Source: Eubacteriales bacterium (GTDB lineage: Bacteria > Bacillota > Clostridia > Oscillospirales > Oscillospiraceae). Taken from it: 45,135 nucleotides of DNA. The notes beneath the pieces were generated by a model. It saw only the letters and a program-made list of their open reading frames with translations, was not told the origin of the DNA and made no database searches. How positions within the stretch are numbered: the stretch's first letter is position 1; each line of letters begins with the position of its first letter. The DNA is taken from assembly GCA_030533415.1 (NCBI GenBank), contig JAUNJE010000021.1, positions 1-45,135 on the forward strand, written 5' to 3'. This document shows positions 17,410 through 27,910 of the stretch, piece after piece. Position numbers and translations under genes: made by a program.

Positions 17410-19164
17410 TTATTCCGCCAAATATTGCGCGTATTTTACCGCCATGAACCGCCAGTTTTCCAGGGCTTCTCCCATCACCGCACCGCAGGATTCCCGGTAC
17501 AGTGCCCACACGAACCAATAGTAGGCAATGATTGCCGTATAGGCCAGGAAATGAAACCGGGTGGTCTCATTGAAGCGTTCCTGGAGATATTCCCGGATAA
17601 ACCGTTCCGCTTCCTCAAAATCATACATGGCATCGACAATATAGTAGCCAACGTCAATGCCGGGGTCGGAGAACCCGGCGTATTCCCAGTCGATGAGGAT
17701 GACGCTGCCATCCGGGCGGATCATCCAGTTCGGCTTATAGGTGTCGCCATGACAGAAGCATTTTGAAACACCGTCTCCCAGGGTTTTCCGGTAAAGCCGG
17801 CCGATTTTCTCCTTCAGGGCCTCATGGGCCAGGAAGCATTCCGGATCTTTCTTTCGCAGCAGCTGCTCCATATCCAGGGCGTCCTCCCAGGGCCGCATGC
17901 CGTAATCCGCCGGAACCTCTGCCCTGTGGAGGGTCCGCAGCACCTGCAAAATCTTCTGGGAATCCGCGAAGGAGCCGTAGTCCGGCTCCCGGAATTCCGG
18001 GACTAGAGTGGAGATTTTCCAGCCCTCATTCACATCCGCATAGATGTAGGTGGGATCGATCCCGAGTTTTTTGGCGGTAATCAGGGAGCGTTTTTCGTTG
18101 CGGCGGTTGATGATGCTTTCGGTCCCGTCGCCGGGGTGGCGGTAGATGTAGTCCGTCCCGCCGATTCGGAAAATGAAGGAGGTGTTGGTCATGCCCTCGC
18201 TGACGTTGCGGAAGCTGGTGATGTCCTCCTCGTCACAGCGGAACACCAGCTTGATGTTGCGGATGATCTCGCTGTTGGTGTGTCCCAGGTATTGGTGGTC
18301 AAACTGCCGCAGCTCCTCGAAATAGTCAAACTCAAAGATATTGCCGTATTCATATTCCTTGAGATACATAGGCGGAAGGTCATTGAGCCTGTCCTTTACC
18401 AGCCACTCCCAGAACATCTGGTCATAGCGGCCCACGGCTCTGTCCGCCTCCGCCAGGGCCAGAAAGGCTCCGGAGAATTCCCGGTTCCAGAAGGAATGGC
18501 CCAGCAGCACCATGCCTTTGTCCTGATGCTCCGTCATGCGCAGAATCCTGCTCTGGCTGTCCGTCTGTACATACATTTCGTCGGTGGCGCAGTCTACGGA
18601 ATGCCCTGCGTAGAAGGTCTGGTATTCATACTGGTTAAAGGGATTTTCAATAAAATAGCTGTCGCTGACGCAAATATAGGTATTGCCCAGCTCTGACTTC
18701 GCAAGACGCAGGCTTTCGATGTTGTTCTTCACTTGGAACAGGGGGTTCAGGATGAATTTCACCCCATACTTCTCTTTCAGATAGAAGAACATCTCCTTTT
18801 TATAGCCCAAAACAATGGTGATATCCGTTATGCCCGCTTCCAGGAGCTGCTGGATCTGCCGTTCGATCAGAGGCTCGCCCTTCACTTCGAACAGGCCCTT
18901 GGGCTGCTCAAGAGACAGCGGAATAAAGCGTGTGGAGGCCCCCGCCGCCAAAATGACCGCGTTGTCCACCCGGTATGGCTCCAGCGCCTTCAGCGCCTTT
19001 TCTGTCAGCTCGCCGCCGGGGGATACGTATCCCCGTTCCGTCAGGGAAAGCAGCAGGCCGGGGGTCTTGACCGCTCTGCTGCGGTAGATATCCGACAAGG
19101 TGGCCGCCCGGCCCATGGCGCCGTTGTAGAGGCTGTTTAGAATGGTGAATTCGTCTTTTCTCAT
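17410..19164 (-). CDS. Winged-helix / LicC-like nucleotidyltransferase / LicA-like kinase fusion
   Basis: A 584-residue three-part protein. Residues 1-66 look like a small winged helix (MRKDEFTILNSLYNG ... LTERGYVSPGG ... LTEKALKALEPYRV). Residues 67-300 are a LicC-type nucleotidyltransferase with ILAAGASTRF (71-80) and QPKG (87-90). The C-terminal half is choline-kinase-like: HGDTYKPN with H472, D474 and N479, then IDWEYAGFSDPG with D492. LicA and LicC make CDP-choline for surface phosphorylcholine, so this resembles both steps in one chain. The true substrate could be another amino-alcohol or a sugar. A GTG nine bases upstream is an alternative start. It begins 14 bases after the amidohydrolase. 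Confidence 0.85.
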   Translation of the reverse strand: MRKDEFTILNSLYNGAMGRAATLSDIYRSRAVKTPGLLLSLTERGYVSPGGELTEKALKALEPYRVDNAVILAAGASTRFIPLSLEQPKGLFEVKGEPLIERQIQQLLEAGITDITIVLGYKKEMFFYLKEKYGVKFILNPLFQVKNNIESLRLAKSELGNTYICVSDSYFIENPFNQYEYQTFYAGHSVDCATDEMYVQTDSQSRILRMTEHQDKGMVLLGHSFWNREFSGAFLALAEADRAVGRYDQMFWEWLVKDRLNDLPPMYLKEYEYGNIFEFDYFEELRQFDHQYLGHTNSEIIRNIKLVFRCDEEDITSFRNVSEGMTNTSFIFRIGGTDYIYRHPGDGTESIINRRNEKRSLITAKKLGIDPTYIYADVNEGWKISTLVPEFREPDYGSFADSQKILQVLRTLHRAEVPADYGMRPWEDALDMEQLLRKKDPECFLAHEALKEKIGRLYRKTLGDGVSKCFCHGDTYKPNWMIRPDGSVILIDWEYAGFSDPGIDVGYYIVDAMYDFEEAERFIREYLQERFNETTRFHFLAYTAIIAYYWFVWALYRESCGAVMGEALENWRFMAVKYAQYLAE

Positions 19165-19178
19165 AAGCGGCACCCAAT

Positions 19179-20747
19179 TCAGGACTTGGCGCGGGAGGTC
19201 AATCCCCGCAGCGCTGCCTTGACGACGTTTTCCCGGCAGCTTTCGTAGGGGACTCCGCCCAGCAGGAGCGCTTCCACCCGGAGGTTTTTCAGCTGGGAAG
19301 CGGGAATCTCATAGGGATTCGCGGACAAAATTACCATATCGGCAACCTTTCCCGCTTCCAGGCTGCCCCGCTCCTTTTCATCAAAGGTGGTGTAATATCC
19401 GTTGTAGGTGGCCATCCGCAGTGCCTGCTGGATGGTCACCGCCTGGGCGGGATTGCTGTGGTTCACCGCCCGGTCCAGCCAGACAATGGGATCGGGAGAG
19501 GTGCAGGGGGCGTCCGAGCCAAGGGAAATGACGAGTTTGTCCTCCGCAAGGGTTTTTAGGGGGTTCAGCCTGTCTGCGCGTTCCTTCCCCAGAATCTGCT
19601 CCAAATATCTGTCCGGCTCCTGCTTCCAGCTGATGAAGGCGCTCTGCATCGGCATCGCGATGCCGTATTCCCGGCAGATGGTTCTGCCCGCCTCCGTGGG
19701 GAGGCAGTCGTGGATGATGCCGTGGCGGTGGTCCGTCCGGGGAAAATCTTCCAGCGCGGCTTTCAGCGCGCGGCAGGCCTGGTCAAAGGCCCGGTCGCCG
19801 ATGGCGTGCATCTCGATCTGTAGTCCCGCCCGGTTGGCTTTCCTGCAAAAATCAATGACGGTTTCATCGTCATAATACAGAACGCCGTCGCCGCCGGCCG
19901 CATCTGCGTAAGGCTCGTTCATGGCCGCGTCATGGGAGCCGAAGCAGCCATCCAGCGCGCAGGCGAAGCAGCCGCCGATCCGGGGCAGCTTCCGGCTGGT
20001 GGCGGCCCGGATGTCCAGAGACTGGGGAAATACCCGTATCTGGAAACCGTTTTTCAGGGATTTGGCAAAAACCTGCTCCATGGTGATGTCCAGGTCCCCC
20101 GCGAAGCCCACGCCGCTGACGGTATGGATACAGCCGATGCCCCGGCTGGCCTGAAAGTCCACGGCCTTCTGCATGTTGCCAAACAGCTCCGGAATGGACA
20201 GGGAGTTCGTAATATAATTGGAAACCTGGAAAAAGGCCTCCTGGTTCATCTCTCCGCTGTCCGGGTGGAAGCCACGCAGGTTTTTGACTTTGTTTTCCAG
20301 CTTTTGCAGCAGCTTGGTATTGACGACACAGGCGTGTCCGTCGTACTTTACCGCCATAAGCTCTTTGTCGGGACACACCGCATCCAGCTCCTCCCGGCGG
20401 ATGAGACGCCCCTCCTTTACGGAATAGGGGGAAGCTCCAAAGGCGATCAGGGTCTTTTTCTGGGAGCCGTGGGCAAACGCACGCACCATTTCGGCGATCT
20501 CTCTATTGGAGGAGGCCTCCATAACATTCAGCCCGGCGTGGAAGGTGGAGAAGGAGGCCAGGTGCTGGTGGGTATCCACAAAAGCGGGGATCAGGGCGCC
20601 GCCCTGCAGGTCGGTAACCGCCGCCGTGGCATACTCCCGGGGCAGGGTGTTGCCCACATAGAGGATTTTCCCCCCGTCCTCTACCAGATACGAAAAGACC
20701 TCGTCTTTCCCGTTTACGGTCACGATGGACCCTTTATAGCATTTCAT
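19179..20747 (-). CDS. YtcJ-like amidohydrolase (amidohydrolase_3 family)
   Basis: A 522-residue metal-dependent hydrolase. The N-terminus has GGALIPAFVDTHQHLASF, with the HxH metal site, and the family segments GASPYSVKEG, IEMHAIGDRAFDQACRAL and LGSDAPCTSPDPIVWLDRAVN, including a C-terminal Asp ligand. The YtcJ group includes N-substituted formamide deformylase-type enzymes; the substrate here is unknown. Its start overlaps the stop of the upstream nucleotidyltransferase by 4 bases (ATGA), so they are translationally coupled. Its place between two LicC-like proteins suggests it supplies or trims the amine compound they activate; that is inference. Confidence 0.85.
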   Translation of the reverse strand: MKCYKGSIVTVNGKDEVFSYLVEDGGKILYVGNTLPREYATAAVTDLQGGALIPAFVDTHQHLASFSTFHAGLNVMEASSNREIAEMVRAFAHGSQKKTLIAFGASPYSVKEGRLIRREELDAVCPDKELMAVKYDGHACVVNTKLLQKLENKVKNLRGFHPDSGEMNQEAFFQVSNYITNSLSIPELFGNMQKAVDFQASRGIGCIHTVSGVGFAGDLDITMEQVFAKSLKNGFQIRVFPQSLDIRAATSRKLPRIGGCFACALDGCFGSHDAAMNEPYADAAGGDGVLYYDDETVIDFCRKANRAGLQIEMHAIGDRAFDQACRALKAALEDFPRTDHRHGIIHDCLPTEAGRTICREYGIAMPMQSAFISWKQEPDRYLEQILGKERADRLNPLKTLAEDKLVISLGSDAPCTSPDPIVWLDRAVNHSNPAQAVTIQQALRMATYNGYYTTFDEKERGSLEAGKVADMVILSANPYEIPASQLKNLRVEALLLGGVPYESCRENVVKAALRGLTSRAKS

Positions 20748-21667
20748 GGCATATCCTCCATCGTCTCATAGGACGGGTCCAGCTGTACCAGCTCGTAAAA
20801 ATTGTCGATTTCCATAATATCCGCCTTGCGGCATTGGCGAATTTCCACAGTATAATTCTCTTTTCGCAGCACCAGCGGGATAAATTCCCAGAACACATCC
20901 CGGCCCTGGGGCGCTTCCCGGTAGACCTGGAGGAAGTCGGCGCGCAGCTTCTCACAGTCCCGGGGCGTCCAGTAGGAAATGCCGTAGTAATTGTAGCAGT
21001 AGGTGCCGCCTTTGCGGTAGTCCGCAATGTGGCCATTGTCCAGCCGGAAGCACCAATCGTCGGTCTCCAGGGCGTAGGACCCCAGAATATTGCTGCAATA
21101 TTGGTATTTGGTAATGACCTGTGGGTTCGAAATGTACAGGTCCGCTTCGCATAGGTAGCAGCCGTTGAGCTTGTCCAGTGCCGCTATGGCGGAGGAAATG
21201 TTGTTGGTTTGGTCGTAAATGTCATTGTCAACGAAGGTCAGGAAGGGGTACTTCTCCAGCAGGGCGTCGAAGGTCTCCTTCTTATAGCCCCGGACGATGG
21301 TGATGTCGGTGATGCCAACCGCCGTCAGCGCGTCCAGCAGAGTGTCGATCATGCGGACGCCCCGCACCGTTACCAGCGGCTTGGGCCTGTCCAGCGTAGC
21401 CGGCACCATCCGGGAGCCAAACCCCGCCGCCAGAATCACGGCGCGCTTCACCCGGTAAGGCTCCAATGCCGCAAGCCCCGCTTCCGTAATGGAAAGCAGT
21501 CCGTCCCGCTCCCGGAGAAGCGCCTGTTCCAGGAGAAATGTCAATTCCCTGTCCACTGCCGTTCCGGAAATACACAGGCTGTCCGACAGCATCCGGTGGG
21601 TGTAAGCCAAAGGGCTTTGCCGCTCCACAAAGGCGAGCAGCTCAAATTGGTATCTGGAAATGTTCAT
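20744..21667 (-). CDS. Winged-helix / LicC-like nucleotidyltransferase
   Basis: A 307-residue paralogue of the front half of the downstream fusion. Residues 1-75 are winged-helix-like (RYQFELLAFVERQ ... DRELTFLLEQALLRERDG). The nucleotidyltransferase follows with AVILAAGFGSRM and DRPKPLVTVRG, GITDITIVRGYKKETF, and late NYYGISYWTPRD. Both proteins share the junction LEPYRVxxAVILAAG, so the domain pairing is ancestral. LicC enzymes transfer CMP to phosphocholine. No kinase domain is present here. GGAGGGGAT at 21671-21679 fixes the start. It is the first gene of the operon. Confidence 0.87.
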   Translation of the reverse strand: MNISRYQFELLAFVERQSPLAYTHRMLSDSLCISGTAVDRELTFLLEQALLRERDGLLSITEAGLAALEPYRVKRAVILAAGFGSRMVPATLDRPKPLVTVRGVRMIDTLLDALTAVGITDITIVRGYKKETFDALLEKYPFLTFVDNDIYDQTNNISSAIAALDKLNGCYLCEADLYISNPQVITKYQYCSNILGSYALETDDWCFRLDNGHIADYRKGGTYCYNYYGISYWTPRDCEKLRADFLQVYREAPQGRDVFWEFIPLVLRKENYTVEIRQCRKADIMEIDNFYELVQLDPSYETMEDMP

Positions 21668-21709
21668 GGTATCCCCTCCGCCGGCAAATTTCCCAGAGTT
21701 TATTTTATA

Positions 21710-21738
21710 ATGATAACATAGTTTTGCCGTGAATTCAA
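21710..21738 (-). promoter_or_regulatory. Probable sigma-A promoter of the licC-like operon
   Basis: On the minus strand, TTGAAT (21738-21733) and TATCAT (21715-21710) lie 17 bases apart, about 45 bases before the first start codon. Confidence 0.6.
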
Positions 21739-21886
21739 CAGCCAGTGTCCGCCGTCCATGGTTTTCCTTTCCGAATGGCGCCGTAGGCAGACGAATATAA
21801 ATCAATACTTATTGCTGAACCAATCTTCCCAAGAACCACTGGCGCTTACGGCGCCTAAGGCTCCCTTTGCACAAGGGAGCCTTAAC

Positions 21887-21923
21887 GCTCAGAAACTTTT
21901 TACTGCATTCTTCTATGGCAAAA
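21887..21923 (+). repeat. Dispersed 37-base repeat, copy A
   Basis: Starts GCTCAGAAACTTTTTACTGC and ends CTATGGCAAAA. It matches 22187-22223 in the same direction, and 45057-45093 on the other strand with one mismatch. Confidence 0.85.
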
Positions 21924-22144
21924 GAGGTTGCCTCTGCGCAAGGGTGCCTTGGGCATCCCCGCACCAGTGCAATCGATATGCCCGATTGATTTGTTCGTCC
22001 TTGATAGGCAGCTACGGCGAGGCGGCGGGGGTTTCCAAAGGGGGCGCGTTTGCACCTAGCGCCCCTTTGGTCGGCTTCTTTCCGTCCCTTTCTTGCCGAA
22101 ACAAGAAAGGGACACCCCCGTCTCCTTGAGAAGATAACAAAAAC

Positions 22145-22223
22145 CGTACAATCTACCGAATTTCAGCGCACCCAAGGCCCCCTTGTGCTCAGAAACTTTT
22201 TACTGCATTCTTCTATGGCAAAA
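22145..22223 (+). repeat. Dispersed repeat, copy B (longer 79-base form)
   Basis: Includes the 37-base unit at 22187-22223 plus 42 upstream bases starting CGTACAATCTACCGAATTTC. The whole 79 bases match the reverse strand of 45057-45135 with few differences. Confidence 0.85.
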
Positions 22224-22290
22224 AATGTGGCATTTTGAATTTTGCATTTAACATTCTGCATTGAAAACGTGTGCATTTCCATTCCCCCGA

Positions 22291-22319: not shown

Positions 22320-22356
22320 ATTCCTACAAATAACTTATGAAAAGGAGAAACAGACC

Positions 22357-23484
22357 ATGTTCTACAAAAACGCACGCATCTTTACCTCCGATTTTCGGTT
22401 CCACTCCGGCGCTTTTGAGGTCGTGGACGGTGTCTTCGGCGAAATCCTGCCGGAAACCGTTCCCGCCGACGCCGTTGACTTAAACGGCGCCACCGTCATC
22501 CCCGGCCTGGTGGATGTCCACAGCCATGGCAACTCCGGTGCGGACTTCTCCGACGGTGATTACGAGGGCCTGAAAAAGATGGCCGCCTTCTATGCCAAGT
22601 GCGGTGTCACCTCCTTCGCCCCCGCCTCCATGACGTTGCCCTATGACGTGCTGGCCAAAGCCTTTGCCACCGCCAGACAGCTGAAAGAGGAGGCTCCCCA
22701 GGGCCTCGCGCGGCTCATGGGTATTCAGATGGAAGGCCCCTATTTCTCCTATAAAAAGCGCGGCGCCCAGAACCCCGACTATTTGAAGGAGCCGGATTTT
22801 GAAGGCTTCCGGGCATTGTACGAAGGCTGCGGCGGCCTGGTGCGGATTGTGGACGTGGCTCCCGAGCTGCCCGGCGCGGCGGAATTCGTGGCCAAGGCCA
22901 AGGACCTTTGCACCGTGTCCATCGCCCACACCGACTCGGACTATGACCACGCAAAAGCCGCCATCGACGCAGGCGTCACCCACCTGACCCACCTGTACAA
23001 CGCCATGCCCGGCATCCACCACCGCAATCCCGGCGTCATCCCCGCCGCCGTGGAGAATCCCAATGTCCGGGCAGAGATCATCTGCGACGGCCAGCATGTC
23101 CATCCCGCCTCTGTCCGTCTGGCCTTTACCATGTTCCGGGACAGAATGATCCTGGTGTCCGACTCCGGCCGCTGCGCCGGCCTGCCTGACGGCAGCAAGT
23201 TCGAGCTGGGGGGCCAGGACGCATGGCTCCGGGACGGTGTGGCACGGCTTGCCGACGGCACCATTGCCTGCTCCGCGGCCAACCTGTGGCAGTGCCTGAC
23301 CAATGTCATCTCCTGGAACATCCCCGAAGAGGAGGCCATCCGGGCCGCTTCCTACAACCCCGCCTGCGCCATCGGTGCCGCCGGTCAGATCGGCTCCATC
23401 GAAAAAGGCAAGCTGGCCGACTTCATCGTATGCAGCAGCGACTATACCCAGAAGCGGGTATTTATCGGCGGCAAAGAAATCTAA
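22357..23484 (+). CDS. nagA: N-acetylglucosamine-6-phosphate deacetylase
   Basis: A 375-residue amidohydrolase that removes acetate from GlcNAc-6-phosphate in amino-sugar use and cell-wall recycling. Metal and catalytic motifs appear in order: VDVHSHG (HxH), MEGPYFS, SIAHTDSDYDHA, THLYNAMPGIHHRNPG, ICDGQHVHP and LVSDSGRCAG with the catalytic Asp. AAAGGAG precedes ATG 22357; an earlier in-frame ATG at 22261 lies before the promoter. No nagB or PTS gene adjoins it, so its partners are elsewhere. Confidence 0.94.
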   Translation: MFYKNARIFTSDFRFHSGAFEVVDGVFGEILPETVPADAVDLNGATVIPGLVDVHSHGNSGADFSDGDYEGLKKMAAFYAKCGVTSFAPASMTLPYDVLAKAFATARQLKEEAPQGLARLMGIQMEGPYFSYKKRGAQNPDYLKEPDFEGFRALYEGCGGLVRIVDVAPELPGAAEFVAKAKDLCTVSIAHTDSDYDHAKAAIDAGVTHLTHLYNAMPGIHHRNPGVIPAAVENPNVRAEIICDGQHVHPASVRLAFTMFRDRMILVSDSGRCAGLPDGSKFELGGQDAWLRDGVARLADGTIACSAANLWQCLTNVISWNIPEEEAIRAASYNPACAIGAAGQIGSIEKGKLADFIVCSSDYTQKRVFIGGKEI

Positions 23485-26524: not shown

Positions 26525-27910
26525 TCAGAACCGGAAATACAGGAACGGGCTGAAAGAACCGTCCACCAGATAAGCCGTGCAAATGAGCAGCAAGCCAACC
26601 ATCATCAATGGTTCCAGCACAGCCCCGGCCTTTGTCCGGGCGATCCGTTCCGCCGCGGCCTTCCCCACAGGCGTGGCGCCCACAAAGCCCAGAAGGAACA
26701 CTGCGGCATAGCTTTTCAGATAATACAGTGTCTCCGCCGTGACCGCCGGCAGGCCGCCGAACCCAAACAGCCCGGCAAAGTCCCCGGCCGCCTGTCCCAG
26801 GCTTTCCGCGTTGAACAGCACAAAGCTCAGCACCACCGTCAGCAGCACATAGCCCCGGCGAAGGATGTCCGGCAGCTTCTGCAGGGCGGGAATCCATTTT
26901 TCCGTCATCAGCAGCACCGCGAACAGCAGCCCCCAAAGGACAAAATTCCATGCCGCGCCGTGCCACAGGCCCGTCAGCATCCACACGGTCAGGATATTGC
27001 ACACCCACCGTCCCCGGCTGACCCGGCTGCCTCCCAGCGGGATATACACATAGTCCCGAAACCAGCTTCCAAGGCTTATATGCCAGCGCCGCCAGAATTC
27101 GGTGACGCTCCTGGACAGGTAAGGGTAGTTGAAGTTCTCCATAAAATGGAAGCCAAATACCCGTCCCAAGCCAATGGCCATATCGGAATAACCGGAAAAA
27201 TCAAAATAAATATTTAAGGTAAAGGCAATGGCATACATCCAGTAAAACAGGACGGATGCTTCCCCGCTCTCCCGGAAAAGCTTGATCAGAAGCGCAAAAT
27301 TGTCCGCCAGGATCACCTTTTTTCCCAAGCCCACCAGGAAGCGGCGCAGTCCCGCCCCAAAGTCCTCCCAGCTGTGGCTGCGGTTTTCCAGCTCCCGCGC
27401 CACATCCACATAGCGGACGATGGGACCTGCAATGAGCTGGGGGAACAGCGCCACATAGGCACCGAAGGAGACCGCGTTTTTCTGGGGCGGTACATTGCCC
27501 CGGTAGACATCAATGGTGTAGCTGAGGCACTGAAAGGTATAGAAACTGATGCCCACAGGCAGTGCCAGCTTCAGCAGCGGAAGGTGCAGTCCGGCGGCCG
27601 CATTGATACTGCCAATAAAAAAATCCGCATACTTAAAAAGTCCCAGCAGCGCCAGGCCGGTGACCACGGACACCATCAGCCAAAATTTTTTCCACCGCTT
27701 CTGTTCCGCCCTGCCAATGGCAAGGCCGCAGACGTAAAACAGGGCAATGGTAAACACCATTAACAGCAACAGCTTCGGCTCCCCCCAGCCGTAAAAGAAC
27801 AGGCTGGCAAGCAGAAGCACGGCGTTTTTCCCCTTCCACGGCACCAGAAAATACAGGCACAGCACCGCTGGGAGAAAATAGTATAAAAAAGGAATACTTG
27901 AAAAGACCAT
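26525..27910 (-). CDS. MBOAT O-acyltransferase, AlgI-like
   Basis: A 461-residue multi-helix membrane protein. The MBOAT core is visible: PVGISFYTFQCLSYTIDVYR, FPQLIAGPIVRY, FDFSGYSDMAIGLGRVFGF, FWRRWHISL (H277) and LTGLWHGAAWNF (H317), the likely catalytic His. It would pass acetyl groups across the membrane to the DHHW protein encoded downstream. GGGGAAAACCT precedes the start. An intrinsic terminator lies in its 5' leader, about 30 bases before the ATG, suggesting attenuation or shielding from upstream transcription. Confidence 0.93.
   Translation of the reverse strand: MVFSSIPFLYYFLPAVLCLYFLVPWKGKNAVLLLASLFFYGWGEPKLLLLMVFTIALFYVCGLAIGRAEQKRWKKFWLMVSVVTGLALLGLFKYADFFIGSINAAAGLHLPLLKLALPVGISFYTFQCLSYTIDVYRGNVPPQKNAVSFGAYVALFPQLIAGPIVRYVDVARELENRSHSWEDFGAGLRRFLVGLGKKVILADNFALLIKLFRESGEASVLFYWMYAIAFTLNIYFDFSGYSDMAIGLGRVFGFHFMENFNYPYLSRSVTEFWRRWHISLGSWFRDYVYIPLGGSRVSRGRWVCNILTVWMLTGLWHGAAWNFVLWGLLFAVLLMTEKWIPALQKLPDILRRGYVLLTVVLSFVLFNAESLGQAAGDFAGLFGFGGLPAVTAETLYYLKSYAAVFLLGFVGATPVGKAAAERIARTKAGAVLEPLMMVGLLLICTAYLVDGSFSPFLYFRF

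Follow-up and report, generated by a model that had tools for sequence, protein, structure and literature searches.

The DNA analysed here, a stretch of 45,135 nucleotides (hereafter the window) of contig JAUNJE010000021.1 from an Eubacteriales bacterium (assembly GCA_030533415.1; genome of 2.7 Mb, 88% complete), contains a coupled three-gene operon on its minus strand (17410-21667), in the order P0003, P0002, and P0001. All operon features given below lie on this strand. The first gene, P0003 (20744..21667), encodes a protein of 307 amino acids in which a predicted winged helix-turn-helix (wHTH) domain precedes a LicC/PntC-like cytidylyltransferase (CyTase). Its start was placed at the ATG at 21667, ahead of which a G-rich ribosome-binding stretch was read by eye; an alternative TTG start at 21805, giving a longer frame, was deemed unlikely. 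P0002 (19179..20747), whose first 4 nt overlap the stop of P0003, encodes an amidohydrolase (Amidohydro_3), and P0001 (17410..19173) encodes a chain of 587 amino acids consisting of a wHTH-like domain, a LicC-like CyTase, and a LicA-like kinase. P0001 starts with a GTG at 19173, 5 nt past the P0002 stop, with an ATG at 19164 as an alternative. The GC content of the operon was unremarkable. The gene set, order, and coordinates proposed earlier by a model from the letters and open reading frames (the sequence-only reading) proved correct.

The assignments were made based on structure and family matches. Residues 71–296 of P0003 matched LicC (1jyk) at 2e-18, P0003 also matched the PntC-type structure 6pd1 at 2e-10, and residues 69–292 of P0001 matched LicC (1jyk) at 3e-40. 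The kinase-like addition in one of the two paralogues, as proposed in the sequence-only reading, was recovered as a match of P0001 residues 311–579 to LicA (4r77) at 7e-29, and the kinase plus cytidylyltransferase chemistry proposed there is thus backed by homology. The intervening coupled amidohydrolase was also confirmed: P0002 matched the Amidohydro_3 model at 2e-57, and its motifs HQH, HAIGD, and GSDAP, which we take to bind metal, lined up with those of structure 3icj. We presume it to be YtcJ-like; no signal peptide was seen in it by eye.

The junction LEPYRV, shared by the two proteins according to the sequence-only reading, is a genuine family feature. In an alignment of 72 rows of P0003-type proteins (P3; relatives of P0002 and P0001 are denoted P2 and P1), P68 and V71 were invariant and L66, E67, Y69, and R70 were conserved at 90% or more. 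A profile of the 72 N-terminal domains matched wHTH structures of CggR, BirA, MarR, SarA, and IclR, the best at 7e-7. The AlphaFold model of the P0003 N-terminus (21452..21667), built on this alignment, contained helices at residues 3–15, 22–29, and 33–45, strands at 49–52 and 55–58, and a helix at 60–65, with a mean predicted local distance difference test (pLDDT) score of 85 and block means of 94 and 96 for residues 31–50, the region of the recognition helix. Profile and model together indicate that this domain is a winged helix, with a predicted recognition helix of the ISGTAV type, conserved as ISGTA within the window's clade. The N-terminal domain of P0001 (18970..19164) appears homologous to it but was predicted with less confidence (four helices, pLDDT 69). 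Across 24 aligned P1 domains, the HTH part reads LYNxSxGRA in most of the window's clade, and the DNA-binding region therefore looks lost there; three members (loci L026, L032, and L040) retain an ordinary-looking HTH. The proposal of a winged helix in both proteins was hence borne out for P0003 and to a lesser degree for P0001, where the HTH has been rewritten.

A scan of genome contigs yielded 267 relatives of P0003, of which the best 80 were retained as the basis of all counts out of 80 given here. Genes in these loci were placed by tblastn, in favour of which antisense reading frames resembling genes (clusters C7, C22, and C28) were dropped. The order P3-P2-P1 was found in 17/80 loci from Bacillota and Spirochaetota, three of them from Treponema; the P1 of L031 leaves the contig. 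Rearranged forms were P2-P3-P1 in L014 and a fused P1-P3 with divergent P2 in L040, and P2 relatives occurred in 20/80 loci overall. The operon is therefore kept outside the strain, as the sequence-only reading required, and the set is no isolated case. Within the clade, P3 identity to P0003 was 57–72%, whereas only one of the 36 other genomes of the window's genus (G013) had a match covering both wHTH and CyTase; it was 51% identical and belonged to the transporter-linked type. This patchy occurrence in the genus, compared to the identity found elsewhere, suggests transfer between lineages, and the P3-P2-P1 set is recurrent and was probably transferred as a cassette.

Four settings were distinguished among the loci, the neighbours of which were annotated in part. 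In setting A, that of the window, P3, P2, and P1 are adjoined by an APC permease in 9/80 loci; neighbours in other members of this setting are LicD, an opine-type dehydrogenase (PF02317), an ornithine-cyclodeaminase-type (OCD) enzyme, or a fusion of a CyTase with a decarboxylase-like enzyme. In setting B, the wHTH-CyTase is accompanied by an ABC transporter for which the best NCBIfam models were PhnS2/T2/U2 (2-aminoethylphosphonate, AEP), with scores under the model cut-offs; all three transporter genes were present in 31/80 loci, and L066 was ended by the contig edge. In five loci, permease and wHTH-CyTase form one open frame of 830–874 amino acids (L036:6369-8939, L037:6351-8930, L038:6345-8924, L039:6264-8888, and L052:6399-8891). 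Setting C combines the wHTH-CyTase with phosphoenolpyruvate (PEP) mutase in 6/80 loci, five of them with AEP transaminase, and representatives of PEP mutase, AEP transaminase, and phosphonopyruvate decarboxylase cleared the NCBIfam cut-offs. Setting D emerged from an evenly sampled survey of the class, in which 9/391 genomes (the window's own included) had a match of at least 45% identity covering at least residues 38–294 of a 295-residue group B query. It comprises a wHTH-CyTase-kinase, mostly plus a separate CyTase, with neighbours such as a BCCT transporter (L160), choline-binding-repeat proteins (L154), and MTTB or B12-binding genes (L161, L153). A choline-type wHTH-CyTase-kinase (L110) was also found in G020, of the same genus as the window. 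Several loci, e.g., L041, L047, L055, and L082, had none of these neighbour types. The survey for licD and phosphonate genes proposed in the sequence-only reading thus returned LicD in some setting-A loci and PEP mutase in setting C, and neither in the window.

Inspection of the DNA ahead of group B and C operons revealed a wide inverted repeat, TGTTCA-N24..26-TGAACA, often near the -10 region. With at most one mismatch, this putative operator occurred in 26/45 upstream regions, 25 of the 26 best matches having a spacing of 24–26, compared to a mean of 0.735 and a maximum of 4 (of 45) in 200 dinucleotide shuffles. A motif-free scan returned TGTTCA as the top 6-mer inverted pair (16/45; next best 6), and arms in everted, direct, or scrambled form were found in 4, 4, 1, 1, 1, and 0 of the 45 regions. 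In the 125 non-redundant genes considered below, with spacings of 10–40 allowed, counts peaked at 24, 25, and 26 (7, 17, and 13, respectively) and were no higher than 2 elsewhere. The operator was present in Bacillota, Spirochaetota (L042, L074), and Actinomycetota (L077), and exact copies accompany the permease-fusion operon of L038 and the wHTH-CyTase-kinase gene of L110. In group D, its right arm can extend into what is presumed to be the start codon (L110, L156), and one arm was retained in some operator-negative genes (L058, L159, L164). An earlier motif, A..A.TTcgAA.., was rejected, as it corresponded to coding DNA for a conserved R.QFE segment (60 bases of the gene had been included).

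The presence of the operator was associated with the sequence of the recognition helix: it was found for 41/58 SLGxVN genes, 2/45 genes binned as ISGTAV, 0/29 P1-type genes, and 0/7 others. The SLGxVN genes comprised 31/43 in the discovery set and 10/14 outside it (9/13 once L108, a copy of L056, was left out), the remaining row being L087, a truncated copy of the L056/L108 gene; of the 14 outside genes, L108 and L110 were collected before the motif was found and the other 12 afterwards, and all upstream sequences were viewed before counting. After removal of near-copies (139 genes reduced to 125), 35/51 SLGxVN genes had the operator vs. 1/74 genes with other N-terminal sequences, the helix classes being text patterns set after the sequences had been viewed. 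The SLGxVN pattern was widened once, which moved the P1 of L040 (helix SLGTVSN) into it, and L087 represents L056/L108 in this count and scores as a miss. The corresponding Fisher value of 1.7e-17 ignores shared descent, since the helix classes are also clades. The lone non-SLGxVN gene with an operator lies in L039, a locus that also contains an SLGxVN gene.

In random regions of the same loci (300 sets), the site had a mean of 1.66 and a maximum of 6 of 58, and among same-locus control regions it was present in 8/338, three of which (L072, L082, and L067) were the operons' own sites. Searches of 14 whole genomes, unintentionally including G158 (the genome of L158 being G117), located an exact site at the operon in seven; in six of these it was the only exact site genome-wide, and G450 had two more. 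G447 had three sites, none at the operon. The reversed control pattern occurred twice in G447 and once each in G136 and G158; the other 11 genomes lacked it. The region, arm-variant, random, and reversed-pattern controls argue against the repeat as a general feature of these genomes. Many SLGxVN genes adjoin ABC transporters of the AEP type or genes for AEP biosynthesis or choline, and since the wHTH-CyTase is the element common to the settings, autoregulation is the simplest reading. The SLGxVN winged helix probably recognises TGTTCA-N24..26-TGAACA in the promoter of the operon that encodes it, with feedback. No description of a winged-helix LicC/PntC protein or of this operator was found in the open-access literature searched. 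The sequence-only reading had suggested enzymes that regulate genes, which is supported in these relatives; for the window's clade, no operator was found.

To what amine the operon might be directed was approached through the pocket residues (CyTase positions in LicC numbering, taken from the alignment). W136 and Y190 are presumably the aromatic pair on the choline side of LicC. According to Rice et al. 2019 (PMC6697681), the acids on that side are D105 and D192, smaller aspartates at places equivalent to E104 and E196 of Tde-PntC, which face the AEP amine. The metal residues D107 and E216 were present in P0001, P0003, and every row of every group aligned. At the positions of D105/W136/Y190/D192, P0003 has E, W, F, and E, and P0001 has V, M, F, and E. 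Because the choline pocket is not reproduced, the enzymes are assigned to the LicC/PntC nucleotidyltransferase and LicA-like kinase families but not to LicC proper. E105 and E192 of P0003 match the AEP-contacting acid pair of Tde-PntC, and in P3 of the window's clade E105 was found in 26/29, W136 in 29/29, and E192 in 28/29. Group C CyTases had both glutamates in 8/8; group B had E105 in 48/52 with D192 in 37/52 and E192 in 11/52. The stand-alone CyTases of group D were LicC-like (D105 in 5/8, E in 3/8; W136, Y190, and D192 in 8/8). In the internal CyTase of P1 (18289..18969 in P0001), metal residues were retained in 26/26, and the amine pocket was changed (V105 in 23/26, M136 in 21/26); that of group D had P105 in 10/11 and no aligned residue at position 136 in 9/11. 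One possibility is that the P1-type internal CyTase acts as a sensor; another is that its specificity differs.

The choline-kinase-like domain of P0001 (17413..18258) retains the catalytic residues. T29, D176, N181, D194, and E196, as well as Y197, W251, and W254, were kept in P0001 and 25/25 clade members, and K45 was replaced by R in all 44 kinases aligned. PMC4364537 places V178, E213, and Y268 in the LicA pocket; P0001 has Y178, D213, and A268, possibly a retuned choline box. Clade kinases had Y178 and D213 in 25/25 and A or S at 268 in 24/25, whereas group D kinases had V178 in 11/12, Y213 in 12/12, and Y268 in 7/12. Position 178 is therefore the telling one, as the choline-type group D itself departs from LicA at 213 and 268. 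Taken together, the pocket residues argue against choline and for an amine that is smaller or primary.

A quick maximum-likelihood tree of 152 CyTase domains, midpoint-rooted and with LicC on a long branch of unsure placement, split P1-type from P3-type CyTases with a support of 97 in the Shimodaira–Hasegawa-like approximate likelihood ratio test (SH-aLRT). The window's P3 shared a set of 40 domains with the permease fusions L036–L039 (SH-aLRT 99), and this set lay inside the transporter-linked group B with weaker support (83–93), which suggests that P3 of the window's clade derives from AEP-type CyTases.

Several neighbouring genes bear on the headgroup. In 7/80 loci (L013, L016, L020, L021, L022, L024, and L025), a CyTase is fused to a threonine-phosphate-decarboxylase-like enzyme (e.g., L016:8929-10758), the best structure match of which was 6oux; this fusion could yield cytidine diphosphate (CDP)-ethanolamine out of phosphoserine. 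In L081 (6273-12571), which has an operator with one mismatch, an M20 peptidase, a wHTH-CyTase, a separate kinase, a P0002-like amidohydrolase, and a C45-family acyl hydrolase stand in a row. The decarboxylase-like fusion and this second amide hydrolase would be in keeping with the release of an ethanolamine-type amine from an amide. Opine-type dehydrogenases were found close to wHTH-CyTase genes in L013, L016, L018, L020, L025, L027, L030, L050, and L083 (in L083 next to an AEP biosynthesis cluster), and OCD-type enzymes in L021, L022, L028, L040, and L059; such repeated occurrence of reductive-amination-type enzymes hints at N-alkylated headgroups. N-carboxyethyl-AEP was looked for in the literature with no usable result and is not counted as evidence. 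A protein of L058 (1904-3973) joins a YidC-like (60KD_IMP) domain to a CDP-glycerol glycerophosphotransferase domain, a join established for this protein, and relatives of it lie near wHTH-CyTase operons in L019, L022, L024, L036, L060, L072, and L078; it is a possible headgroup transferase.

Other features were recorded near these operons. A 45-nt direct repeat (93% identical, copies 300 nt apart at 21887-21931 and 22187-22231) lies between the operon and nagA in the window. An ordinary nagA adjoins the wHTH-CyTase gene both in the window (22354-23484, divergent) and in L043 (6132-7316, ~20 nt upstream on the same strand). A nagA-type deacetylase as a substitute for P0002 in L043 was considered a weak candidate, as the genes of L043 and the window both pass the ordinary NagA model TIGR00221. 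The window gene at 26528-27910 is a relative of the MBOAT acyltransferase that comes after the operon in L013 (12431-13864), and another lies directly ahead of the operon in L160.

We propose that the operon activates a small amino alcohol for a surface glycan in the manner of the Kennedy pathway, the amine most likely being not choline but ethanolamine or an N-substituted form of it. P0002 would cleave an amide-type precursor to set the amine free, the kinase domain of P0001 would phosphorylate it, and P0003, possibly together with the CyTase of P0001, would form the CDP-linked headgroup. A LicD-type transferase would then place the phospho-amine on a polysaccharide. As the sequence-only reading had stated, LicD is missing beside the operon (no match in the window), but the genome encodes one copy on another contig, in a stretch that also holds a GT2-type gene and further glycosyltransferase-type genes recognised by eye. 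In the SLGxVN relatives, the wHTH would act on the promoter of its own operon, with feedback as in BirA or NadR, whereas in the window's clade the P0003 recognition helix is altered and that of P0001 looks largely lost. The domains, fold, conservation, association of operator and helix, and pocket residues are computational results; for the scheme built on them as a whole, with its substrate, amide step, ligand sensing, repression, and LicD transfer, we see an even chance of being correct.

A number of observations weigh against it. The pocket arguments rest on alignment rather than on a complex structure, and positions 213 and 268 of the kinase carry little weight. A protein with choline-binding-type repeats, encoded in the same genome, would fit choline, and no gene for the amide substrate or for its uptake was identified in the window. 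Given the AEP-type descent that the tree suggests for P3, a phosphonate substrate is possible. On the regulatory side, the TGTTCA operator was found in 0/31 upstream regions of the window's clade, and no inverted 6-mer pair was common to more than 4 of 37 regions, whether 400 or 3000 bases were scanned. The ISGTAV recognition helix of P0003 is unlike SLGxVN, and DNA binding by P0003 is possible but unsupported, because neither operator nor common inverted pair was found for the clade. The site that the sequence-only reading had suggested for DNA binding, at 21710..21738, is a promoter-like match (TTGAAT-17-TATCAT, 9/12, with TG ahead of the second hexamer) and gained no comparative support, nor does it contain a TGTTCA-N25-TGAACA operator; with one match found vs. 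a shuffle mean of 0.6, it is weak taken alone. P0003 either recognises another site that escaped the scans or has retained the domain for contacts.

The latter alternative, in which the winged helix of the clade is a leftover scaffold for dimerisation or P0001–P0003 contact and does not bind DNA, is compatible with any substrate and was judged only a little less probable than its opposite. It would explain why the inverted-pair scan came up empty for the clade when TGTTCA ranked first (8) in an identical 3000-base scan of 37 SLGxVN genes, and why the HTH of P0001 was rewritten to a conserved non-HTH sequence; on the other hand, the P0003 recognition helix is well formed in the model and conserved in the clade, and an operator may sit at promoters farther upstream in larger clusters. 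As to the substrate, a plain Lic pathway, with P0001 making phosphocholine, P0003 making CDP-choline, LicD transferring the product, and the amidohydrolase freeing choline or being unrelated, would agree with LicC and the choline kinase LicA as top structure matches, with the LicD and choline-binding-type repeat protein of the genome, and with the distant wHTH-CyTase-kinase genes beside a BCCT transporter or choline-binding-repeat proteins. We regard it as unlikely, given that the clade carries E105/E192 and Y178 in place of the residues of the choline-type group D, and that its neighbours are APC permeases (no counterpart was matched in the window's genome, in a search run with no positive control), opine-type dehydrogenases, and Ser/Thr-phosphate-decarboxylase-like fusions, among which no search for BCCT transporters was made.

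Improbable to a similar degree is the formation of two headgroups, with P0003 activating an imported phosphonate (AEP or N-alkyl AEP) and P0001 another, phosphorylated amine. The grouping of clade P3 with the permease-CyTase fusions of AEP-transporter-type loci, the Glu/Glu pocket resembling that of Tde-PntC, and the loci L028 and L050, where a dehydrogenase of OCD or opine type accompanies P3 and the examined stretch lacks a kinase, would all be accounted for by it. However, no AEP-type transporter or PEP mutase was matched in the window, nor was PEP mutase (PF13714) in the 88% complete genome, and P3 is accompanied by such a kinase in 28/80 loci (27 fused, L081 separate), which fits one common substrate.

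Compared to known systems, the operon resembles the Lic-1 pathway, to which LicB also belongs, in both activation chemistries (by homology) and in the LicD of the genome. It differs in the fusion of kinase and CyTase behind a wHTH, the second wHTH-CyTase, the amidohydrolase, the absence of licD beside the operon, and pockets unlike those of LicC and LicA. BirA, a biotin ligase and repressor, likewise has an N-terminal wHTH on an enzyme making an activated intermediate and an operator at its own operon, as is likely for the relatives described here, but its catalytic domain is unrelated, and the operator arms here are ~31 bp apart, centre to centre. NadR, with a DNA-binding domain, nucleotidyltransferase, and kinase in one chain, resembles the wHTH-CyTase-kinase chain in its three-part architecture, a likeness of description rather than of compared homology; its enzyme families and substrate are others. 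In the archaeal riboflavin kinase with wHTH (3cta, a profile match), which acts as a regulator, a wHTH is also fused to a small-molecule kinase, although of another type and for another substrate. The AEP cytidylyltransferase PntC (PMC6697681) shares the CyTase family and the Glu/Glu pocket pair, and the wHTH relatives adjoin AEP biosynthesis and AEP-type transporter genes; here, a wHTH is added, a kinase is present, and PEP mutase was not found. The main text of that paper makes no mention of the terms winged, helix-turn-helix, regulat-, or transport.

A more far-reaching proposal is that wHTH-cytidylyltransferases are trigger enzymes for the metabolism of surface headgroups and make up a large family not recognised as such, a joint proposal that we think could equally well hold or fail. 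Its CyTase would sense the product linked to cytidine monophosphate (CMP) or CDP, upon which the wHTH would repress its own uptake or synthesis operon via TGTTCA-N24..26-TGAACA. In wHTH-CyTase-kinase chains, the CyTase without amine pocket would act as a sensor, by analogy with NadR; the permease-wHTH-CyTase fusion would be a single membrane protein for import, activation, and regulation; and the window's clade would have changed its recognition helix in the course of a shift to a new amine.

Phosphocholine and aminoethylphosphonate, when displayed on bacterial surfaces, shape contact with the host, and no description of how gut bacteria monitor the supply of such pathways was found in the open-access literature searched. 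If the proposal is true, activating enzymes with a DNA-binding domain and a helix-matched operator would make supply sensing testable, for which the short consensus DNA is provided here, and the operon of the window may represent a non-choline, amide-derived headgroup pathway across gut and rumen bacteria.

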